Shown: positions 6,487 through 43,839 of the stretch, one piece after another
How the letters are laid out: every line of letters begins with the position of its first letter
Position numbering within the stretch: position 1 is the first letter of the stretch
IMG/VR virus record: IMGVR_UViG_3300046838_000123
Location: 1 to 43,839 of that record
Source of the DNA: a virus
Length of the DNA stretch: 43,839 nt
Direction: 5' to 3' (one strand)
Made by a program: the position numbers and the translations under genes
The notes under the pieces: model-generated
The model's input: only the letters and a program-made list of their open reading frames with translations
Told to the model about the DNA's origin: nothing
The model's database searches: none

Positions 6487-6882
6487 TCAATCGACCGTTT
6501 CGGCCAGCGCTCCGCTGTTGAACTGGAACGTGTTCGAGGTATTCACCGTCACATCGGAGCTCAGCTGCGCATAGCTGAGTACGTTGCCCGCCGTGCTCGC
6601 ATCCATGACCGCCACATAGCGAATCGTGCCCCAGCCGGCCGTGGCCGTGGGAAACGTGGTCGTGGTCGCGGAGCCATCGCCGTCCGTGGGAGCCCCGAAG
6701 GTGAGCGCTACACGCGCGTAGGAACCACCTGTCACCTCATTCGTGAGTGTCCCGGCTTTGATCTCGGCCAGGGAGGCGGTCGAGGTGAAGAGCGCCCCGT
6801 AGACAGCCGCGGGACTCGTGTAGTTCGTCGCGCGATAGACGTGGTTCGCGATCTTGTTCGCGAGATAAGTCGATGCGGGCAT
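6487..6882 (-). CDS. Tail fibre-family virion protein, 131 aa (paralogue of 550-993)
   Basis: Member of the same small tail-fibre family as 550-993. It has an N-terminal NKIANHVYRATNYTSPAAVY segment, YGALFTSTASLAEI, EVTGGSYARVALTFGAPTDG and a C-terminal GTIRYVAVMDAST block. This NKxxxHVxR...VYxALFTS...GGSYARxAxTFxAP layout is common in siphovirus and podovirus tail regions. Duplication of the family within one genome suggests two related fibre or baseplate parts. Confidence 0.8.
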   Translation of the reverse strand: MPASTYLANKIANHVYRATNYTSPAAVYGALFTSTASLAEIKAGTLTNEVTGGSYARVALTFGAPTDGDGSATTTTFPTATAGWGTIRYVAVMDASTAGNVLSYAQLSSDVTVNTSNTFQFNSGALAETVD

Positions 6883-6895
6883 GAGGGAAACTCCG

Positions 6896-7393
6896 TCAGA
6901 TCAGGACGTAAACGAGGGAGCCCCCAACAGCCAGGGCACTACCGAGGTTGATGTTCAAAGCTTGGTTGGCGGCGGTCTCGAAATGTCCCACGGGACAATA
7001 GCTCTCACTGATTCCGCCATTAGCGGCAAACTGCATCGCGCCACAGATATCCGTGGTTGCACTCTGGAACTTCACCGTGTTCGCCCCCGCACTGACCACG
7101 GCGTATTTCAGGACGCGGATTTTGTGGGTCGCATCCGCCGCAACGACCGCCGTATTGCCACTGGCGCTCGAGGTGATAACGGCGAATTTCGGCGTAACGA
7201 TCGTGCCGGCATTGGACATCTGGGTTGATTCAAGTGTCGCTTGCACGGGCAGCGGCTGGGCTACCTGTGTGTCGGTTCCGGTACCATCCGCGCCCCAAAC
7301 CGGCTTGACCCGTTGGGCGAGGACTCCGCTGCCCAAATCATCGGCAGCGATCGTGGTTCCGCTCCCGGCAGTAATGGCAACGTTATCGACCAA
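6896..7393 (-). CDS. Conserved virion structural protein, 165 aa
   Basis: Starts MVDNVAITAGSGTTIAADDL and continues GVLAQRVKPVWGADGTGTDT, a pattern shared by a common family of phage structural proteins of unknown role. The second half is beta-rich (THKIRVLKYAVVSAGANTVK). It lies between two tail-related genes in the late block. Probably a tail or fibre-associated protein; the exact place in the particle cannot be told. Confidence 0.75.
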   Translation of the reverse strand: MVDNVAITAGSGTTIAADDLGSGVLAQRVKPVWGADGTGTDTQVAQPLPVQATLESTQMSNAGTIVTPKFAVITSSASGNTAVVAADATHKIRVLKYAVVSAGANTVKFQSATTDICGAMQFAANGGISESYCPVGHFETAANQALNINLGSALAVGGSLVYVLI

Positions 7394-7402
7394 GGGATGC
7401 TC

Positions 7403-8098
7403 CTAAGTACCAACGCCCAACAATGAGCGCGTAGGTGTTATGACTGCCGCTGACGCCATGCCGAGTGCAATCATGGTGGCCTGCATGGACTGCGCGCTAC
7501 CGTCTGCAATCGAGCCGTTGAATCCCAGACTGGAGGCCACCGCTGTAGCCGTGGTTTGAATCCAGTAGGCCACGACAATCGACGGATTCGTGCCGTTGTT
7601 GTGACTCTGAGCTGCAATGGTCCAGTTGGTCGGCGTGCTGTAACTGGTGCCATCCGAGGTCGAGGTCTTATTGCGTTCGCCCAGGAACCACATGATCGCA
7701 TTGTTCTGACTCGGCGTGCGCGTGGACCCAATCCCCACAATGTTGGCATTCGAGTTGGAGATTCGTTCGGCGGCGGAGATCAGATTCGTCAGACTCGAAT
7801 CCACCCCCGTCAACGTGCATAGCTGGGCGAATCCCTGCGCCGTCGCGCCCCAATTGACCGTGGGAATCGTCTCGGACGTCGAGGTCGCAATCTTGCCGTA
7901 GACCTGAACCTGCTTACAGCTGACATTCGGCGTCAGCAACGTATAGGTATTGTCCGGGAAAGTCAGGGTGTTAGATCCCTGATACTGCCCGGTGTTGTAT
8001 AGAATCAGATCGCCGATCGCATACGTTCCGCCAAAGGCCGGCGTTCTGTTTCCTGTCCCGATCGTGAAAGCGCCGATCGTCCCAATCGCGATCGTCAC
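7403..8098 (-). CDS. Putative tail structural protein, 231 aa
   Basis: GTG start at 8098 overlaps the TGA of the large upstream tail gene (GTGA, 8098-8095). The protein is Ser/Thr/Gly/Asn-rich and beta-predicted. It opens MTIAIGTIGAFTIGTGNRTP, has a central CKQVQVYGKIATSTSETIPT segment and ends in small hydrophobic residues. No family is named with confidence. Translational coupling with the 857-aa protein suggests that they are used together at the tail tip. Confidence 0.65.
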   Translation of the reverse strand: MTIAIGTIGAFTIGTGNRTPAFGGTYAIGDLILYNTGQYQGSNTLTFPDNTYTLLTPNVSCKQVQVYGKIATSTSETIPTVNWGATAQGFAQLCTLTGVDSSLTNLISAAERISNSNANIVGIGSTRTPSQNNAIMWFLGERNKTSTSDGTSYSTPTNWTIAAQSHNNGTNPSIVVAYWIQTTATAVASSLGFNGSIADGSAQSMQATMIALGMASAAVITPTRSLLGVGT

Positions 8099-10668
8099 GC
8101 AGCAAAGCCTGTTTTAAGCGCGTAAAACAGGTGATCTGAGGCAATCGCCCACTTGTAGTGCATGTGGTTGTTGAAGGCGAGCGCGTTCATGGCGGACGGC
8201 CCCAAGGAGAGTGCAACCTGATTCCAGGCGTTCTGCGTCATGACGCCCGGCGTCGGCCAGGTCACATACGGTGCGCAATCGCCGACGTTGTTACCGACCA
8301 GAACATCCCCTTCCTGCGTCAGGACGCGATTTCCTGCGGACACCTGCAGGCCCGCGATGTTGTTGGAGACAATCTGTGTGCCGCCGCTCGAGGTGTATCC
8401 GGACGATCCTCCCGTATCCCGGTTGAACATGCCCGTGCTGGTTCCAATCAGCGTGTTGGTGCCGAAGGTCTGATTGGCAAAGGTCAGTGCTCCTGTGACG
8501 GCATTGACCGCGCTGACGACACCCTCGATGTTGTAGGTGGTCTCCGTAGGGCCCATGAGAATGGCCCCACCCACGGGAAAGACGAAGAACACGAACCGAC
8601 TGTAGGGTCCGAGATTGAATATACCGTTGGATCCCAAGGCGGGATTCTGCAGCAGGATGTTGACCAGAAGCCCAAATCCTTGGCCAGCAGTCTGCGGCGA
8701 GCACTCCACCATGTGCTGATTGGTGAATCCAAATCCAGTCGGATAGGCCGGTGCAACACGGGAAGGCACTTGAGAATTGACAGTGGCCGCTCCCGGATCC
8801 ACATACCGCACCACCTGGAAATCGAAATAGCCGTCATGCCACAACGAAGACAAACCAACCTGTGAGCCCCCACACTGTACGACGTGCATGTTGGCGCCAT
8901 CTGTCCAGGTATCGGTGAATGCACTCGCCGACACACTGTTGGAGGCGGCCGAGTAATTGCCCGCTCCGTTGGAATTTCGGGCGCGGATCTGCACCGTCTG
9001 CGCAATACCTGCGGGGACGTTGTAGAAGTCCACGCGACACGATTGCATGTCAATGCCGTTGTTGGCCGCAGGCGTGAAGCGGGGTTGCACTCCCGTTATG
9101 CCAGAGGGCGAAAGCAGTCCTTCCAACTGCGTGATCTGCGGCCCCCCGTTCGGCGCGGGCATATCACAAATCGCATACAGCGTCGTCGGCGTCAGATCCG
9201 AATAGAGCTTGATGCTCTGGGGCGCTGCGGGAACCGGACCCGAACTCACCGGGAAATTAGCCGGATAGGCTGTATTGGTGATCGGATTGGCGTTGATGAA
9301 CGGGACAATCTTGGACGACCAGTCGTAGTTGGTACCGGATACGTAGGTCCATAGGAAATACGAGCACCGCAGCGTTTGCGCGGATGCGAAGTTATCCGCC
9401 GGTCCCTTGGTCGGGAAATGCGTGTAGGTGGCTTGTTGCGCAAAGCCGATGCAGGGAATGCTGTTGCGATAATCGGTTCCGCCGGGCGTAAAGCCCGAAC
9501 CATTCCACCGATTGCCCATGTAGACGTTCTGGGCGATGGTGGGAAAACCACCGGCGGCCGTGGGGTAGACATCCGGACTCGACATCGCCACTGCCGGACC
9601 GGCCACCGCCAGGTTGTCCACAATCCCATTGATCGTGAGCGCGTTGGCAATGACGAAGTTGATCTGCGGTCCCACCAAGGTATGGGGGAACGCCGCCACC
9701 ATCCGGTTGACCTGGGTGTTGAAGTTGTTGGCGAAATTGGTGCTGTTGTAGTCAGAACCCGCCTGCAGGTTGAGGGAGGTTTCCTGGTTAAAAATGAACT
9801 CAATCAGCGGATGGGTATCGAATGTGAAGGTCTGTCCCGCATAGGGACCGGAGGTCGTGACGAACGAGGTCGTGGCCAGATGCTCGAACATCCGCGTATA
9901 GCGGTCGTTGACGTTGGTGCGCCAGATCGCCGCACAGGCTCCCGACTGACCGGCGCCGAAGTCCTGATTCCAGTAGCCGAAGTGAACCCCATCCGAACCG
10001 GGTCCGTAGATGGAGTTGTTCAGGATGTAGGCCGGGGTTCCCAGTCCTGTTGCTCCGGTACCGCTGAACTTCTCGCACCAGATCATGGGTCCAAAACGCT
10101 TACCCGGCGCGACCGACTGCAGGTAATTGAAATCCTCGATGATGTTGGCGAAGTCATAGCCGCCGTCCGAGAGCTCGCAGACGTCCCACGTGTAGATCGT
10201 CTGGTATCCCAGGACATTGGGCCCCGAGGCGGCCAGGATGTTCATCTCGTTCTGGTTACGCCCGTTGCCTCGGGTCACGCTCCCGTTGATGTTGTTAGAC
10301 CCCATGTAGTGGCCGGGATGCCACTTCACCGGTTGACCGGTCGCCGGACTGCAGCCCACAACCGCGGAGGTATTGCCGGTCTGGTACTGGTCGAAGGCCT
10401 CAACCCGGTAGAACTGCGTACCCGGCAGGGTGTCCGGAAGGCTGGTCGCCGTCGTGGTCGTGATGAGGGTGAAGGGACCGCCGGCGGTGGGGCCCTTGTA
10501 GAGCCGGTAGCCGGCGATCACGGACTGACCGGTGGGGATGGGAGGGGTCCAGCTCAATGTCGCCGTGGAGCCGCTCACAGAGGCTTGCAGCTGGGGGGCG
10601 GCGAGGATACCCGTGAGGGTACGGACGGCCGTCAGCTGCATGTCAGTGATCGCACGGGGAGTGGCCAT
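8095..10668 (-). CDS. Large receptor-binding/tail protein with FN3 modules and glycosidase-like core
   Basis: Protein of 857 aa. Residues about 22-110 form a fibronectin type III domain (TATLSWTPP, GYRLYKGPTAGGPF, YRVEAFD). Next comes a region of about 350 residues starting VKWHPGHYMGSNN, with aromatic- and Asp-rich segments (YQTIYTWDVCELSDGGYDF, GPMIWCEKFSGTG, HPLIEFIFNQET) that looks like a TIM-barrel glycoside-hydrolase fold. A second FN3-like stretch (VQIRARNSNGAGNYSA) and a beta C-terminus follow. Likely a tail-tip adhesin or depolymerase acting on host surface glycan. The enzyme assignment is inference. Confidence 0.75.
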   Translation of the reverse strand: MATPRAITDMQLTAVRTLTGILAAPQLQASVSGSTATLSWTPPIPTGQSVIAGYRLYKGPTAGGPFTLITTTTATSLPDTLPGTQFYRVEAFDQYQTGNTSAVVGCSPATGQPVKWHPGHYMGSNNINGSVTRGNGRNQNEMNILAASGPNVLGYQTIYTWDVCELSDGGYDFANIIEDFNYLQSVAPGKRFGPMIWCEKFSGTGATGLGTPAYILNNSIYGPGSDGVHFGYWNQDFGAGQSGACAAIWRTNVNDRYTRMFEHLATTSFVTTSGPYAGQTFTFDTHPLIEFIFNQETSLNLQAGSDYNSTNFANNFNTQVNRMVAAFPHTLVGPQINFVIANALTINGIVDNLAVAGPAVAMSSPDVYPTAAGGFPTIAQNVYMGNRWNGSGFTPGGTDYRNSIPCIGFAQQATYTHFPTKGPADNFASAQTLRCSYFLWTYVSGTNYDWSSKIVPFINANPITNTAYPANFPVSSGPVPAAPQSIKLYSDLTPTTLYAICDMPAPNGGPQITQLEGLLSPSGITGVQPRFTPAANNGIDMQSCRVDFYNVPAGIAQTVQIRARNSNGAGNYSAASNSVSASAFTDTWTDGANMHVVQCGGSQVGLSSLWHDGYFDFQVVRYVDPGAATVNSQVPSRVAPAYPTGFGFTNQHMVECSPQTAGQGFGLLVNILLQNPALGSNGIFNLGPYSRFVFFVFPVGGAILMGPTETTYNIEGVVSAVNAVTGALTFANQTFGTNTLIGTSTGMFNRDTGGSSGYTSSGGTQIVSNNIAGLQVSAGNRVLTQEGDVLVGNNVGDCAPYVTWPTPGVMTQNAWNQVALSLGPSAMNALAFNNHMHYKWAIASDHLFYALKTGFAA

Positions 10669-10725
10669 TTACAGCCGACACGTCGGTTTCGGGCCGCGCC
10701 TGAGCCAGTACCGAATCCACAGCAT
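10669..10725 (-). CDS. Tiny ORF, 18 aa, tiled between two tail genes
   Basis: Reads MLWIRYWLRRGPKPTCRL. The ATG at 10725 shares a base with the stop of the 109-aa gene (TGATG), and its TAA is followed directly by the ATG of the 857-aa gene. The exact tiling suggests it is translated, perhaps only to couple its neighbours. No function can be inferred from so short a sequence. Confidence 0.35.
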   Translation of the reverse strand: MLWIRYWLRRGPKPTCRL

Positions 10726-11054
10726 CAGGCAAGCATAAAATCCGAGACGGGCCCCGGCACCTTCGCGGCGATGGCGAATGCGAACTCGTTACCCCACTTG
10801 GCGACCGCACCATCCTTGGTCACCGCTCGAGCAGCGGCGAACCAGTTGCCGATCGCGAGATTGCTGGGCAGAGCTCCGGTCTGCTTACCCGCAGTCACCG
10901 TGAGGTCGGCGTCGTCCACCACGAGGGTGTAGGTGCCCGACACCTGACCGAAACCATATTGGTACTTCGTGATAGTCCCGACCGGGATGGCGGTGCCATC
11001 CTCGAAGGTGGCGGGCGCGGTAAAACTCGCCGTAACCGGGTTGGTCACAGACAT
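10725..11054 (-). CDS. Small FN3/Ig-like virion protein, 109 aa
   Basis: First gene after the terminator-like hairpin that follows the NusG paralogue. The pattern ASFTAPATFEDGTAIPVGTITKYQYGF...GNWFAAARAVTKDGAVAKWGNEFAFAI resembles a compact fibronectin/Ig-like domain. A GGAG Shine-Dalgarno lies before ATG 11054. Probably a decoration or tail-associated protein; the role is not known. Confidence 0.7.
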   Translation of the reverse strand: MSVTNPVTASFTAPATFEDGTAIPVGTITKYQYGFGQVSGTYTLVVDDADLTVTAGKQTGALPSNLAIGNWFAAARAVTKDGAVAKWGNEFAFAIAAKVPGPVSDFMLA

Positions 11055-11064
11055 GGGAGACTCC

Positions 11065-11092
11065 AGAAAAAGAGAAAGCCCGCGATGGCGGG
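11065..11092 (-). terminator. Terminator-like hairpin between the NusG paralogue and the structural genes
   Basis: On the minus strand CCCGC-CATC-GCGGG (11092-11079) is followed by CTTTCTCTTTTTCT. The stem is short but fully paired and the tract is U-rich, although broken by C. It lies 3' of the NusG-like gene and just before the first structural gene, the classic place for a terminator overcome by a phage antiterminator. Confidence 0.6.
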
Positions 11093-11153
11093 AAATCGAC
11101 CGTGGGGAAACGGAGGAATCAGCTCGGGATGAGCTTTGGCGGACGCTGCCGCC

Positions 11154-11170
11154 TGTGAGACCAGCTCACA
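11154..11170. repeat. 17-bp inverted repeat TGTGAG-N5-CTCACA
   Basis: Perfect 6-5-6 inverted repeat TGTGAGACCAGCTCACA in the 133-bp gap after the NusG paralogue. Its geometry and outer bases match TGTGAT-N5-ATCACA at 12964-12980. It could be a protein operator or an RNA hairpin with a five-base loop of the boxB kind in the late leader. Confidence 0.45.
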
Positions 11171-11187
11171 TCAGTGGGTTATAGCAC

Positions 11188-11688
11188 TCAAGCGCATAGC
11201 TCAACAAGCCCTCCCGACAGCGATACGGGAGTATCCCGGCCCAAGATGTTCAGCAATATGGTTACCCGGTCATCCGATGACTCGTTGAGGAAAATCCCCT
11301 GCCAGTGATTGAATGCCCCGCCGGTAATGCGTACGCGGCACTGGGGCTTCAAAGGGTCTTCGATGCGACGTAACTGTACGGCCGGATCTTCGTACTGTCG
11401 TAGGCCGTCTATGACAGGCTGGGGCACCACGGCGTACTCCTCGCCGAAACGTACGAGGCCCAACACGCCTTTGGTGGACTTCGCCGGCGCGAGGTTCTGG
11501 ATACCGACCGCGAGCTGCAGGAATAGATACTGCGGGAAGAGTGGCGAGACCGCCTGAATTCTTCGTCCAAACCGCCGGCGACGGATAATCAGACGCGGAC
11601 AGTATACGAGGTAATCCTGATCCTGCAGCCGCTCCTCCGCGAGGGCTTCACACCCCGCCTTGGTGCGAATGACATACCAGCGATTCAT
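11188..11688 (-). CDS. NusG/RfaH-like transcription antiterminator
   Basis: Protein of 166 aa with the two-domain plan of NusG paralogues. The N-terminal NGN domain starts WYVIRTKAGCEALAEERLQD and has YCPRLIIRRRRFGRR and SPLFPQYLFLQLAV (residues 4-60). A C-terminal KOW-type domain has VRITGGAFNHWQGIF and ends in SLSGGLVELCA. RfaH-type proteins bind RNA polymerase, suppress pausing and termination, and act on selected operons. The ATG at 11688 overlaps the rusA stop (ATGA). The gene sits at the front of the 30-kb late block with a terminator-like hairpin behind it, so late-operon antitermination is a strong inference. Confidence 0.9.
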   Translation of the reverse strand: MNRWYVIRTKAGCEALAEERLQDQDYLVYCPRLIIRRRRFGRRIQAVSPLFPQYLFLQLAVGIQNLAPAKSTKGVLGLVRFGEEYAVVPQPVIDGLRQYEDPAVQLRRIEDPLKPQCRVRITGGAFNHWQGIFLNESSDDRVTILLNILGRDTPVSLSGGLVELCA

Positions 11689-12047
11689 CCCGGCACGCGC
11701 GCCGCTTCACCAATACGCACGACGGTGCGAGCAGGTTTACCAATGCTCTGGATGTAGGTCGTGGTCAAGTGCGTTGCGTCATCGTCCACGAAAAAGCCTT
11801 CGCTCACGAGCGCATCTTGGAGCAATTTGCACCCCCCGCAGAAGTTATCCGGGTCGAGTTTGCGCGGACTGATGCGCTCGATGGTCAAATATCCGTGCGG
11901 CACCGTCACCACCTTCACGTGGGCTTCGAGTACGGCCGCTTTCACCAGCCACTGCCAGGTACCCCGCATGCGATAGCGACGCGCCCAGTGGAGTTTGTCC
12001 ATGACGTTGCGCGAGAGGATCGGCTCGGGCAGCTCGAGTGTGATCAT
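11685..12047 (-). CDS. rusA: RusA-family Holliday junction resolvase
   Basis: Product of 120 aa from ATG 12047, preceded by a GGGGG Shine-Dalgarno; a longer upstream reading has no such support. It shows the RusA signature: SRKLDPDNF-type core (here ISPRKLDPDNFCGGCKLLQD), then ALVSEGFFVDDDATHL, with acidic residues for metal binding. The usual family length is about 120 aa. RusA dimers resolve four-way junctions; here that would debranch DNA before packaging or complete Bet-mediated recombination. The gene is coupled to the NusG paralogue downstream. Confidence 0.9.
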   Translation of the reverse strand: MITLELPEPILSRNVMDKLHWARRYRMRGTWQWLVKAAVLEAHVKVVTVPHGYLTIERISPRKLDPDNFCGGCKLLQDALVSEGFFVDDDATHLTTTYIQSIGKPARTVVRIGEAARVPG

Positions 12048-12069: not shown

Positions 12070-12480
12070 TTACAGCGGCTCGTTGTACAGCGATTCAAAC
12101 GCCGCGCGCCAGTCAACCGGCTTGCGATCCTTCGCCCCAATGATGACGCACTCCAGGCCGCTTGTTTTAATGGCTTCTCGGAATCGTTCTTTTCGCGTGT
12201 TGGTATCCGTGGTCCCGTCAAACACATCCAAACCGCAATGGTCCAACATGCGTTTGGCGAGCCACGCTTCGTTGTCCAACTGGCTCAGTTGCGTCACCCC
12301 CCGTTGCTGAGGTCCCTTCGCCCCAGCGACCCGCTGCTCCAGCCGCGCCATCATTTCATCGTGCCCGTGGACGGTCGGAGTGCGATCGAAGTAGCCTTTG
12401 GGAGTGCTCACTTTTTGACCATGTGGTATTTTATGCGCATGAATCTTGCTTTCCCCGTACGTATGAGCGCCCTTCTGCAC
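12070..12480 (-). CDS. Hypothetical protein, 136 aa
   Basis: Soluble, charged protein (EMMARLEQRVAGAKGPQQRG, LDNEAWLAKRMLDHCGLDVF, KPVDWRAAFESLYNEPL) upstream of rusA in the late block. The listed start is a GTG at 12480 with AGGA nearby; a GTG at 12411 would give a protein of 113 aa. No domain is recognised. The position between a zinc-binding protein and RusA hints at DNA metabolism. Confidence 0.65.
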   Translation of the reverse strand: MQKGAHTYGESKIHAHKIPHGQKVSTPKGYFDRTPTVHGHDEMMARLEQRVAGAKGPQQRGVTQLSQLDNEAWLAKRMLDHCGLDVFDGTTDTNTRKERFREAIKTSGLECVIIGAKDRKPVDWRAAFESLYNEPL

Positions 12481-12491
12481 CTGATCCTGGC

Positions 12492-12728
12492 CTACCCGGA
12501 ACGCTTCGAGCGTGCGGGCTTGCCGTGCGCCCTACTTCCGTTCTGGGAAGTTGCATTGGATGACTTGCGCAGAAACTCATTGACGCGCGCCTCGTGATTG
12601 GCGGCGCGGACCTTCTCGCGCGTGGGTCTAACCATGCCTGCACAGATCTCACGGTGATCAACCTCGCCTGAGTACGGAATTTGGTGTCGCCATTCAATCT
12701 GTTCTCCACAGAATAGGCATCGGCTCAT
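12492..12728 (-). CDS. Small zinc-binding protein, 78 aa; first gene of the late block
   Basis: Starts MSRCLFCGEQIEWRHQIPY and has EVDHREICAG, so Cys4, Cys7, a His and a later Cys could bind zinc in a minimal ribbon or HNH-like fold. The C-terminus is basic and disordered. A GAGAGG Shine-Dalgarno lies before ATG 12728. No family is assigned. As the first gene leaving the control region on the minus strand it may be regulatory. Confidence 0.7.
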   Translation of the reverse strand: MSRCLFCGEQIEWRHQIPYSGEVDHREICAGMVRPTREKVRAANHEARVNEFLRKSSNATSQNGSRAHGKPARSKRSG

Positions 12729-12916: not shown

Positions 12917-12945
12917 TTGAAGTCCGATCGAAACTGATAGATACT
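12917..12945 (+). promoter_or_regulatory. Predicted sigma70-type promoter for a short RNA
   Basis: TTGAAG (12917-12922), a 17-base spacer and GATACT (12940-12945) on the plus strand. The -10 box lies inside the inverted repeat GATAGATACTGTCTATC (12936-12952), so a regulator bound there would block it. No ORF of useful length follows before the terminator at 12982-13016. Confidence 0.5.
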
Positions 12946-12952
12946 GTCTATC
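12936..12952. promoter_or_regulatory. Candidate operator GATAGA-N5-TCTATC
   Basis: Perfect 6-5-6 inverted repeat covering the -10 box and probable start of the predicted short-RNA promoter. Its sequence is unlike the CACT-N3-AGTG operators of the switch, so a different regulator is likely. Confidence 0.45.
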
Positions 12953-13016
12953 GACACGTTGCATGTGATAGACGATCACAGAACCCCCGGATGGTCTTCC
13001 GCCTCCGGGGGTTTTT
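12952..13016 (+). ncRNA. Candidate small RNA (about 65 nt)
   Basis: The interval runs from the predicted start site to a strong intrinsic terminator. It contains one hairpin (TGTGAT-AGACG-ATCACA, 12964-12980) and the terminator hairpin, and has no useful ORF. It is antisense to the last 14 codons of the zinc-finger gene 12976-13257. Existence of the transcript is inferred from promoter and terminator alone. Confidence 0.45.
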
Positions 13017-13257: not shown

Positions 13258-13399
13258 AAGGAGCGCCCGGCTCCGTAGGGAGCACGCCGAGAGGAGCTCA
13301 GCGTATGGACGGGCGCATAGAACTCTATGAATGCCGCGTTAAGTCGAATCGCGCCGTGCGGCTGTGTGCGGTATGGCACAGTGGATGGCACAAGAATAA

Positions 13400-13642
13400 C
13401 TAAGCCGACGCGGCGAACTGCTGTACTACCGGCGGTTCGCGCGGATACAGGTCAGGACGCAAATCGTGACGAGAGACGCCCGTGGCGCGCTCTACTTCCA
13501 GCACCCGCTCGGCAGGCACCCGCTTATCGCGGAGCAGCCAATTGGAGATGGACCCTTGGGACTTCAGCCCCAAAGCTCGAGCCAGGGCGGTCTGGCCGCC
13601 GGCATTGTCAATGGCCTTGCGTAACGCTTCTATGCGATTCAT
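13400..13642 (-). CDS. Cro/YdaS-like HTH regulator, 80 aa
   Basis: Compact helix-turn-helix protein: ALRKAIDNAGGQTALARALGL then QGSISNWLLRDKRVPAERVL and VERATGVSRHDLRPDLYP, the pattern of the YdaS/Cro antitoxin-like family. The ATG at 13642 lies where transcription from the predicted promoter (-10 at 13654-13649) should begin, so its mRNA may be leaderless. It diverges from the CI-like gene 29 bp away and operators O1 and O2 lie between and inside their starts. It probably controls the early operon together with the CI-like protein. Confidence 0.85.
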   Translation of the reverse strand: MNRIEALRKAIDNAGGQTALARALGLKSQGSISNWLLRDKRVPAERVLEVERATGVSRHDLRPDLYPREPPVVQQFAASA

Positions 13643-13648
13643 CAATCG

Positions 13649-13678
13649 CTTATACCACTATTGGTGATTACGTGGCAA
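13649..13678 (-). promoter_or_regulatory. Promoter for the Cro/YdaS-like gene
   Basis: On the minus strand TTGCCA (13678-13673), 18-base spacer, TATAAG (13654-13649). Predicted start is at or next to the ATG at 13642. Operator O1 lies between the two boxes, so a bound repressor would exclude polymerase. Confidence 0.65.
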
Positions 13679-13690
13679 CCACTCAAAGTG
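13654..13690. promoter_or_regulatory. Operators O1 and O2 of the genetic switch
   Basis: O1 is CACTATTGGTG (13656-13666, within ACCACTATTGGTGAT) and O2 is CACTCAAAGTG (13680-13690). Their centres are 24 bp apart. They follow the consensus CAC(T)-N3-(A/G)GTG. O1 sits in the minus-strand promoter; O2 lies in the first codons of the CI-like gene. Two further copies occur at 14183-14215. Confidence 0.75.
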
Positions 13691-14154
13691 ATTTGAATGC
13701 ACGGCAAACTAAAGCCGTGCCGAAACCTGCGAAAACAAGTCCTCTGTGGTCACGCTTCTGGGATGCGCTCACCGACGTCCGCAAGCCGGCCTTTCCCGAT
13801 CCGTATGATCAAACAGTGATTGGCAAGGCCATCGGCGTGGGTCAGACTATGGTCTCAGCGATCAAAACAGGGGATAAGTTGCCTGGGGTGGAGACCGCGC
13901 TAGCAATGGCGCAGTACGCCCAGATGAGCGTGATTTACCTACTCCAAGGGGAAGGCCCGCAGAGGCCATGGAGTGACATGGACACCGAGTTCCGGTCGCT
14001 GATTCAGTTCTGGGAAGCCCTCGACGATGCCAATCGCGGGGAGTTGCTCAAGCGCGCGGACGAGCTGTTCAGACTTCAAGAAACCTCAAGACGCCCACGT
14101 TTTGCGCCGCAACCAACATCCTCCCGCAAAGCCACAAAAAAGCCCGCTCACTGA
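13672..14154 (+). CDS. CI-like HTH transcriptional regulator, 160 aa
   Basis: GTG start at 13672 with GGTGAT just upstream, giving VATTQSDLNARQTKAVPKPA; a longer upstream reading crosses the promoter and is unlikely. The HTH is YDQTVIGKAIGVGQTMVSAI followed by KTGDKLPGVETALAMAQYAQ and VIYLLQGEGP, the usual XRE/CI fold. The C-terminal part (FRSLIQFWEALDDANRGELL) may dimerise; no LexA-type autoprotease domain is visible. A terminator follows directly, so it forms its own unit between the two operator pairs. Likely the lysogeny-side repressor, though a Cro-type role is possible. Confidence 0.8.
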   Translation: MATTQSDLNARQTKAVPKPAKTSPLWSRFWDALTDVRKPAFPDPYDQTVIGKAIGVGQTMVSAIKTGDKLPGVETALAMAQYAQMSVIYLLQGEGPQRPWSDMDTEFRSLIQFWEALDDANRGELLKRADELFRLQETSRRPRFAPQPTSSRKATKKPAH

Positions 14155-42973: not shown

Positions 42974-43839
42974 CTAGTCCTCCAGTGAGGTCAGAATGAG
43001 TACGAGAGCTTCCTCATCGTCTCGTTCTGCCTGTTCACGCATTAGATATTCGATTTCCCGGTCGATCCGCGCACTTAAGGCTGCGGGCGCTTCGCCCACT
43101 CTTTGGGCAAGGCTCGTGAAATCGGGAACCGTGTCGATGACCGCTTGCGGCAGCGTCTCGGCCGGCGAGATAAAGACTGACTCAGTAGCTAGCTGGATCA
43201 GCTTTTTCTTGCGCTTGCGCCGGTACCATCCTTCCGCGCTGCGGGGGCTATCGACCGGGCCCGGCTGAGTCGTTGTAAGTGGGTCGAGCGTCCCGAAGGC
43301 ATCGAACAGCATGGCCGCACTGCCGGCCAACGTACCGGTGGCGGTGAGCGTTCCGGAAGCGGCGAACGTGATCGCACTCGTGCCGCTGATCGCGCCCGAG
43401 TCGGCCGTACCACTGGCGCCAAAGACGAGGGCGGATGAGCCGGTGAGCGCCCCGGCCCCCGCTATGGCGCCAGTTTGACCGAAGATCAGAGCGCTCGAGC
43501 CTGCTAACGCTCCAGATCCGGTGACCGCACCGGTCTGACCGAAGACGAGTGCTGAGGTGCCCGCGAGTGCACCGGCTCCTGTGAGCGTGCCACTTTGACC
43601 AAACTGAAGGTCCGCTTGCCCGCTCGAGGCGAAGGTGAGAACGATCTGACCATCCGCGCCGCTGCCCGCCAGGCTCGTTCCCGAGGTGGTGCGCATCGCG
43701 CCCCCACCCCCACCGCCGGGAATGACGCCCGGTAAGCCTGCGCCCGTGGTACCGGAGCGGCCCGCTCCGCCATCGCCCCCATTGGCGCGTCCTGTACCGC
43801 CCGCGGAGGCAACTGCATTATTCCCCGCGCCCGTCCCGT
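42974..43839 (-). CDS. Glycine-rich tail fibre protein, C-terminal part (continues from position 1-548)
   Basis: Residues about 190-428 of the fibre that starts at 548. After the Gly-rich domain come about five 20-residue repeats with the pattern FGQ(S/T)GxLTGAGALAG(T/S)SALV, likely forming a repetitive beta shaft. A basic patch (WYRRKRKKKLIQ) then leads to a helical C-terminus (ALSARIDREIEYLMREQAER). Bases 43713-43839 duplicate 1-127. Confidence 0.8.
   Translation of the reverse strand, partial: GTGAGNNAVASAGGTGRANGGDGGAGRSGTTGAGLPGVIPGGGGGGAMRTTSGTSLAGSGADGQIVLTFASSGQADLQFGQSGTLTGAGALAGTSALVFGQTGAVTGSGALAGSSALIFGQTGAIAGAGALTGSSALVFGASGTADSGAISGTSAITFAASGTLTATGTLAGSAAMLFDAFGTLDPLTTTQPGPVDSPRSAEGWYRRKRKKKLIQLATESVFISPAETLPQAVIDTVPDFTSLAQRVGEAPAALSARIDREIEYLMREQAERDDEEALVLILTSLED
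43713..43839. repeat. Terminal direct repeat (circular closure), right copy
   Basis: Identical to bases 1-127. Reading across the closure keeps the glycine-rich fibre frame intact: GTG 548 to the stop at 42974 is a whole number of codons (1287 nt) on the 43,712-bp circle. Confidence 0.9.

Follow-up and report, generated by a model that had tools for sequence, protein, structure and literature searches.

Phages are known to control their late genes by means of Q-type proteins, polymerases of their own and sigma factors. NusG paralogues are already known as antiterminators, and so is recruitment at the ops element. In E. coli, changes at G4, G5, A7 and G8 of ops abolish the recruitment of RfaH, the T at position 6 is flipped into a pocket of RfaH, and the T6A change costs about 3-fold (PMC5995543). 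The T11G12 of ops induces pausing. That a NusG paralogue can work through a hairpin in the leader ahead of a terminator has its precedent in LoaP (PMC12691694). The literature also mentions rfaH-like genes on plasmids and in prophages (PMC7593976). In the open-access literature, we found neither a NusG paralogue that a phage encodes as its late switch nor the Rhizobiales leader RNA treated below described in any paper.

The window, that is, the whole 43,839-base bacterial-virus record IMGVR_UViG_3300046838_000123, carries a 127-bp exact direct repeat at its ends (1–127 and 43713–43839) and is, therefore, probably a complete genome. The minus strand holds the structural genes (portal, terminase, major head protein, head closure), and the plus strand holds early genes from 13.3 to 26.1 kb, e.g., those for a Bet-like annealing protein and a regulator. 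Since the end repeats allow joining, the minus-strand late block would run across the record ends; the 30-kb block of the original prediction has about that length only with the ends joined. The nusG gene sits near the 5′ end of this block and is, as stated there, its fourth gene. Its placement before the structural operon is conserved as well: the order early genes, nusG, leader, structural genes is common to the window and two viral relatives, L002 and L071, and the placement recurs in an unrelated phage family. The features are as follows.

12492–12728, minus strand: ORF ahead of nusG
12070–12480, minus strand: ORF ahead of nusG
11685–12047, minus strand: RusA-like Holliday junction resolvase gene (profile match and sequence)
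11188–11688, minus strand: nusG, an RfaH-like NusG paralogue of 166 aa with NGN and KOW-type C-terminal domains (profiles, PDB, AlphaFold2)
11178–11207, minus strand: possible promoter TTGTTG-18-TGC-TATAAC with extended −10, its −35-like hexamer inside nusG; CGCTTGAGTGCTATAACC is identical in L002
11122–11197, minus strand: leader block conserved in L002 (7160–7238; 82% identity over 79 columns)
11154–11170, minus strand: hairpin 1, TGTGAG-CTGGT-CTCACA (TAGGAGA-GCTGG-TCTCCTA in L002)
11143–11153, minus strand: ops-like element GGCGGCAGCGT, its core GGCGGCAGC present in the window, L002 (7206) and L071 (3526)
11121–11135, minus strand: hairpin 3, AGCTC-ATCCC-GAGCT (GGCTC-ATTCC-GAGCC in L002, one compensatory pair)
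11066–11092, minus strand: terminator-like hairpin CCCGC-CATC-GCGGG with T-rich tract, directly ahead of the first structural-block gene
10725–11054, minus strand: first gene after the leader, an ORF of 109 aa without a family match in profile searches
8095–10668, minus strand: next block gene, for an fn3-domain protein (profile match)

The nusG ATG overlaps the stop of the RusA-like resolvase gene, an overlap that points to probable translational coupling of these two as the last early genes. The second gene after the leader also encodes an fn3-type protein in L002. Upstream, the divergent intergenic region contains operator-like repeats, GATAGAtacTGTCTATC then GTGATAGACGATCACAGA (12935–12995), which adjoin the plus-strand regulator gene at 13327–14154.

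The identification of the protein as a NusG/RfaH paralogue with an NGN domain is borne out by profile searches. Pfam NusG/NGN (PF02357) matches at E = 3.6e-15, with 56.7 bits over a curated cut-off of 22.2; phrog_6386, “transcription antiterminator”, matches the 166-aa protein at 3.8e-22; and the best NCBIfam match is the RfaH model (E = 4.5e-34, residues 4–157). The 144.5-bit cut-off of the RfaH equivalog TIGR01955 is missed by all three viral proteins (window, 117.7; L002, 123.4; L071, 144.3), and that of the LoaP model NF033641 (125 bits) is missed by the window protein at 32.6. RfaH structures are the best sequence relatives in the PDB, and the profile aligns to structures of the RfaH C-terminal domain (CTD). 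The KOW-type region that had been predicted is spanned by the RfaH profile and modelled as a barrel but has no separate Pfam match. In the tree, the three viral proteins form one clade (support 100/97) separate from bacterial RfaH.

AlphaFold2, run with a 20-row alignment of collected proteins, gives a model (pLDDT 85) with the NGN domain and a five-stranded CTD β barrel at residues 118–164 (pLDDT about 86), without an α hairpin; rhizobial NusG paralogues make up much of this alignment and may bias the CTD toward the β form. A three-sequence run is too poor (pLDDT 48), yet the CTD strands are there as well. Fold matches of the model include NusG and ops-bound RfaH. In the E48–R138 salt bridge of E. 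coli RfaH autoinhibition, R138 is retained in the window protein, and position 48 is Ser (Val in L071). With S48 and a β CTD in both runs, the structure prediction does not support the RfaH-type fold-switching, α-helical autoinhibited CTD that had been raised earlier. Because the CTD is predicted as β and E48 is replaced, a non-autoinhibited protein is to be expected; autoinhibition is unlikely on these models.

The leader occupies the 133 non-coding nt between nusG and the next gene and consists, in order, of an extended −10-like TGCTATAAC, hairpin 1, GGCGGCAGCGT, two more hairpins, and a terminator-like stem with a T-rich tract. It folds with z = −1.8 (6 of 200 shuffles were as good). The promoter is a weak candidate since the consensus scan did not find it, and TTGAGTGCTATAACC was rejected as a widespread phage promoter, its 54 viral matches all being chance except L002. 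What the original prediction called a 17-bp inverted repeat at 11154–11170 is present but amounts to a hairpin of 17 nt, its arms 6 bp long and its loop 5 nt. Its proposed part in recruitment gains from its retention in L002 through altered pairing, but the adjoining GGCGGCAGC, within the ops-like GGCGGCAGCGT that was missed at the time, is a more specific candidate. The hairpin with a U tract likewise exists, its stem CCCGCcatcGCGGG-CTTTCTCTTTTTC lying at 11092–11079, but is no commoner than in shuffles, with 3 terminator-like matches observed versus 2.5 expected, the chance level. As the scan does not rise above shuffles, support for a terminator comes from its position and from the stronger terminator-like hairpin that L002 has in the same place (7270–7288). 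Rfam gave no match at or above the gathering score in the window or the related loci, and the leader's single sub-threshold match was dismissed as chance.

The element GGCGGCAGCGT is one mismatch from GGCGGTAGCGT, the RfaH recruitment site ops of E. coli, and is the sole zero-mismatch match to GGCGGYAGCG in the whole window. Compared with ops (GGCGGTAGCGTG), 10 of 11 bases agree; T6 is replaced by C. The element retains G4, G5, A7 and G8 as well as C3. T11G12 occurs in L002 only, where alone G12 is found, the window having T-C and L071 A-C. In the protein, the ops-contact residues K10 and Q24 are retained and position 73 is basic; the window has K10, R20, D23 and K73 at the contact positions, and L071 has H20, Q23 and R73. 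R23 is changed to D or Q, and H20 to R in two of the three viral proteins. A co-evolved specificity of D23 with C6 was ruled out, since two bacterial relatives (L266 and L271) have D23 with the canonical T6.

We found only three viruses of the window's family, and two of these are close. L002, a virus of 43 kb, has a NusG protein 87% identical to the window's, and in it about 0.65 kb with small ORFs (6502–7150) is inserted between nusG and the leader. The leader block is 82% identical between the two and the gene 79% at the nucleotide level, and since that insertion separates them, the leader appears to be maintained as a separate unit. Hairpins 1 and 3 are both retained in L002 through altered pairing. 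The order antiterminator gene, loading region, terminator, late genes is found in the window and L002. The L071 protein is 42% identical to the window's. There, GGGCGGCAGCC begins about 51 nt after the nusG stop, ahead of the terminase genes; by eye, its leader does not evidently align with that of the window, no terminator was found in its 169 nt, and the fold beside the motif is weak (55 of 300 shuffles as good). Nevertheless, the exact 9-mer GGCGGCAGC lies in all three leaders, against chance expectations of 0.003, 0.002 and, for L071, 0.0007 per region. A conserved cis element is found at the place expected of an antitermination loading site.

Among 20 bacterial relatives, four (L266, L271, L274 and L278) carry an exact GGCGGTAGCGT 82–302 nt downstream of the rfaH-like gene on the same strand; they represent three lineages, as L266 and L271 hardly differ. 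The canonical ops in the four means that a layout of gene, then ops, then operon exists among the protein's kin. In these four, the RfaH homologue adjoins the operon that is probably its target. Other candidates were set aside. L003 was a chance match, the hairpin-plus-ops DNA pattern had L002 as its only real match across viral contigs, and a search of genome contigs with the viral alignment yielded no relative. The Salmonella contigs that match RfaH in the “phages” collection are bacterial DNA, as is the gut “phage” MT838961, with its secE-nusG-rplK neighbourhood; the E. coli and Citrobacter “plasmid” matches are chromosomal segments. L059, L060, L076 and L078, although recorded as phages or plasmids, are chromosomal DNA of bacteria (a Salmonella rfaH contig, gut secE-nusG-rplK and fadBA-ubiD-rfaH-tat “plasmids”).

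The description of such a gene as unusual in phages has to be qualified, since annotated rhizobial phages (Rivra, phi2LM21, phi3LM21, vB_MseS-P1 and PPF1) carry NusG paralogues in the same position. They belong to a second phage family, of the same PHROG (6386) but about 20% identical and in a separate clade, whose members occur in rhizobial phages as well as the “Nostoc” phage Nsp-JY10, always as the last gene before the HNH/terminase genes. The recorded host of Nsp-JY10 (L075, PP395642.1) may be doubtful because the relatives of its NusG and leader are mainly in rhizobial phages. The leader element of this group consists of P1 (CCYTGA/TCARGG), a covarying P2 and a CAGTGCNNNAGCTATG tail. Examples in phages and prophages are the following.

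L075, 8591–8662: Rhizobiales leader RNA
L080, 3694–3765: Rhizobiales leader RNA
L081, 4726–4797: Rhizobiales leader RNA
Loci L087–L255: further Rhizobiales leader RNAs

Matches to GAYTCARGGNCAGTGCNNNAGCTATG, a pattern so specific that chance does not explain them, were obtained in 118 viral and 51 genome stretches; by title, all the genome records are Rhizobiales. The NusG paralogue ends 86–182 nt upstream of the element in 164 of 164 testable copies, i.e., those with enough upstream sequence (9 fell short). The copies are partly dependent, with about 68 remaining at <72% flank identity. A terminator-like hairpin follows within 120 nt downstream in 152/170 (89%), versus 60/568 control windows, and TerL is on the leader's strand in 65 of the 76 long-enough loci. 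The two helices covary, with 55 both-side changes versus 19.1 when shuffled and a score of 0.271 versus 0.129 (0/500), and sliding the helix partner destroys the covariation. An Rfam search with this leader RNA gave no match. An unrelated rhizobial phage group has, on its sequences, evolved the same nusG-leader-terminator arrangement.

We propose the following course of events. The NusG paralogue would be made as the last early gene. Host RNA polymerase, coming from the local promoter or from upstream, would transcribe the hairpin and then GGCGGCAGC, which the NGN domain would read in the exposed non-template strand while binding the polymerase. The polymerase so modified would pass the terminator-like hairpin (11092–11066) and then, further along the ~30-kb late block, sites of pausing, Rho action or termination. 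On balance, we favour this model as a whole, a phage-borne, RfaH-like late-gene antiterminator in the position of λ Q, with its loading site in an ops-like leader. The most likely function is processive antitermination, in which host RNA polymerase carrying the phage protein transcribes the late block, and a late switch-on by antitermination is probable because an RfaH-like gene precedes a conserved signal and a stop signal heading the structural genes. From the protein family, gene order, conserved leader, motif recurrence and predicted β-barrel CTD, which this analysis shows, we infer motif-based recruitment, antitermination, and termination at the hairpin. Counted against the ops-like model are the C at position 6, the absence of T11G12 in two of three leaders, the R23 and H20 changes, the L071 leader with no terminator found, a window hairpin scan at chance, and the small number of viruses, three.

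The same antiterminator role could be served by LoaP-like recruitment to a nascent-leader RNA hairpin, 1 or 3, with GGCGGCAGC being part of the RNA structure. The persistence of both hairpins in L002 with altered pairing, the clearly covarying leader RNA of the Rhizobiales system and the need of LoaP for a leader hairpin (PMC12691694) all fit. However, the protein scores 117.7 bits as RfaH against 32.6 as LoaP, and in L071 the 9-mer is exact beside a hairpin that 55 of 300 shuffles equal. We regard this reading as possible though rather unlikely and favour ops-like recruitment in the non-template strand over it. The lost E48 and the barrel CTD, suggestive of a constitutively active form, would also suit a protein acting on the whole programme, e.g., by replacing host NusG (anti-Rho, transcription–translation coupling), with no dedicated loading site and a gene position that sets timing only; monomorphic β-RfaH homologues act without ops and adjoin their own operons (PMC13015549). 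Against this stands a leader conserved like the gene even when separated from it (82% versus 79%), with its ops-like motif, and we consider such action improbable. Finally, the pair might be an accessory morphon from a bacterial rfaH locus with an ops-like site and little effect on the phage. Bacterial loci of this kind exist and just three viruses were found, but the arrangement is conserved between viruses 42% identical in NusG, coupling and position are retained in 3/3, and the viral clade is distinct from bacterial RfaH, so that a morphon is very improbable.

It is an even call whether phages have captured NusG paralogues as late antiterminators at least two times: in the window, L002 and L071 from RfaH, with an ops-like leader, and separately in Rhizobiales phages, with an undescribed conserved leader RNA as the loading signal. 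If the model is true, a universal elongation factor has been reused as a late switch with its cis signal adjoining, a new solution, and the Rhizobiales leader would represent an antitermination RNA of a new class, present in many prophages. The protein and a leader of roughly 130 nt make compact, testable pairs and offer a likely route for RfaH-type regulators moving between genomes.

With λ Q and AlpA of P. aeruginosa (PMC7969949), the locus shares the layout of antiterminator, promoter/loading region, terminator and late genes, but the protein family is unrelated, and Q and AlpA have their binding sites between −35 and −10, whereas the candidate site in the window is in the transcribed leader. 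LoaP (PMC12691694) is alike as a NusG paralogue with a leader hairpin, a pause and an intrinsic terminator before a long operon; in contrast, it binds a UNCG-loop RNA hairpin and serves antibiotic operons in Gram-positives. The rhizobial-phage paralogues share PHROG 6386 and the position before HNH/terminase genes, but their clade is separate, at about 20% identity, and their leader is a covarying RNA without ops. The monomorphic β-RfaH homologues (PMC13015549) resemble the window protein in the predicted β CTD, the lost interdomain contact residue and the gene beside a long operon; they act on bacterial operons and do not need ops, whereas the phage late block retains an ops-like motif. From RfaH/ops of Enterobacteriaceae, the window protein differs in being phage-borne and adjoining one target, in its score (117.7 versus 144.5), in E48 being Ser, in a predicted β CTD with no sign of autoinhibition and in the C at ops position 6. 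Like RfaH, it combines NGN and KOW domains, has RfaH as its best PDB sequence match and among its top fold matches, and goes with a long operon whose leader contains an ops-like sequence.
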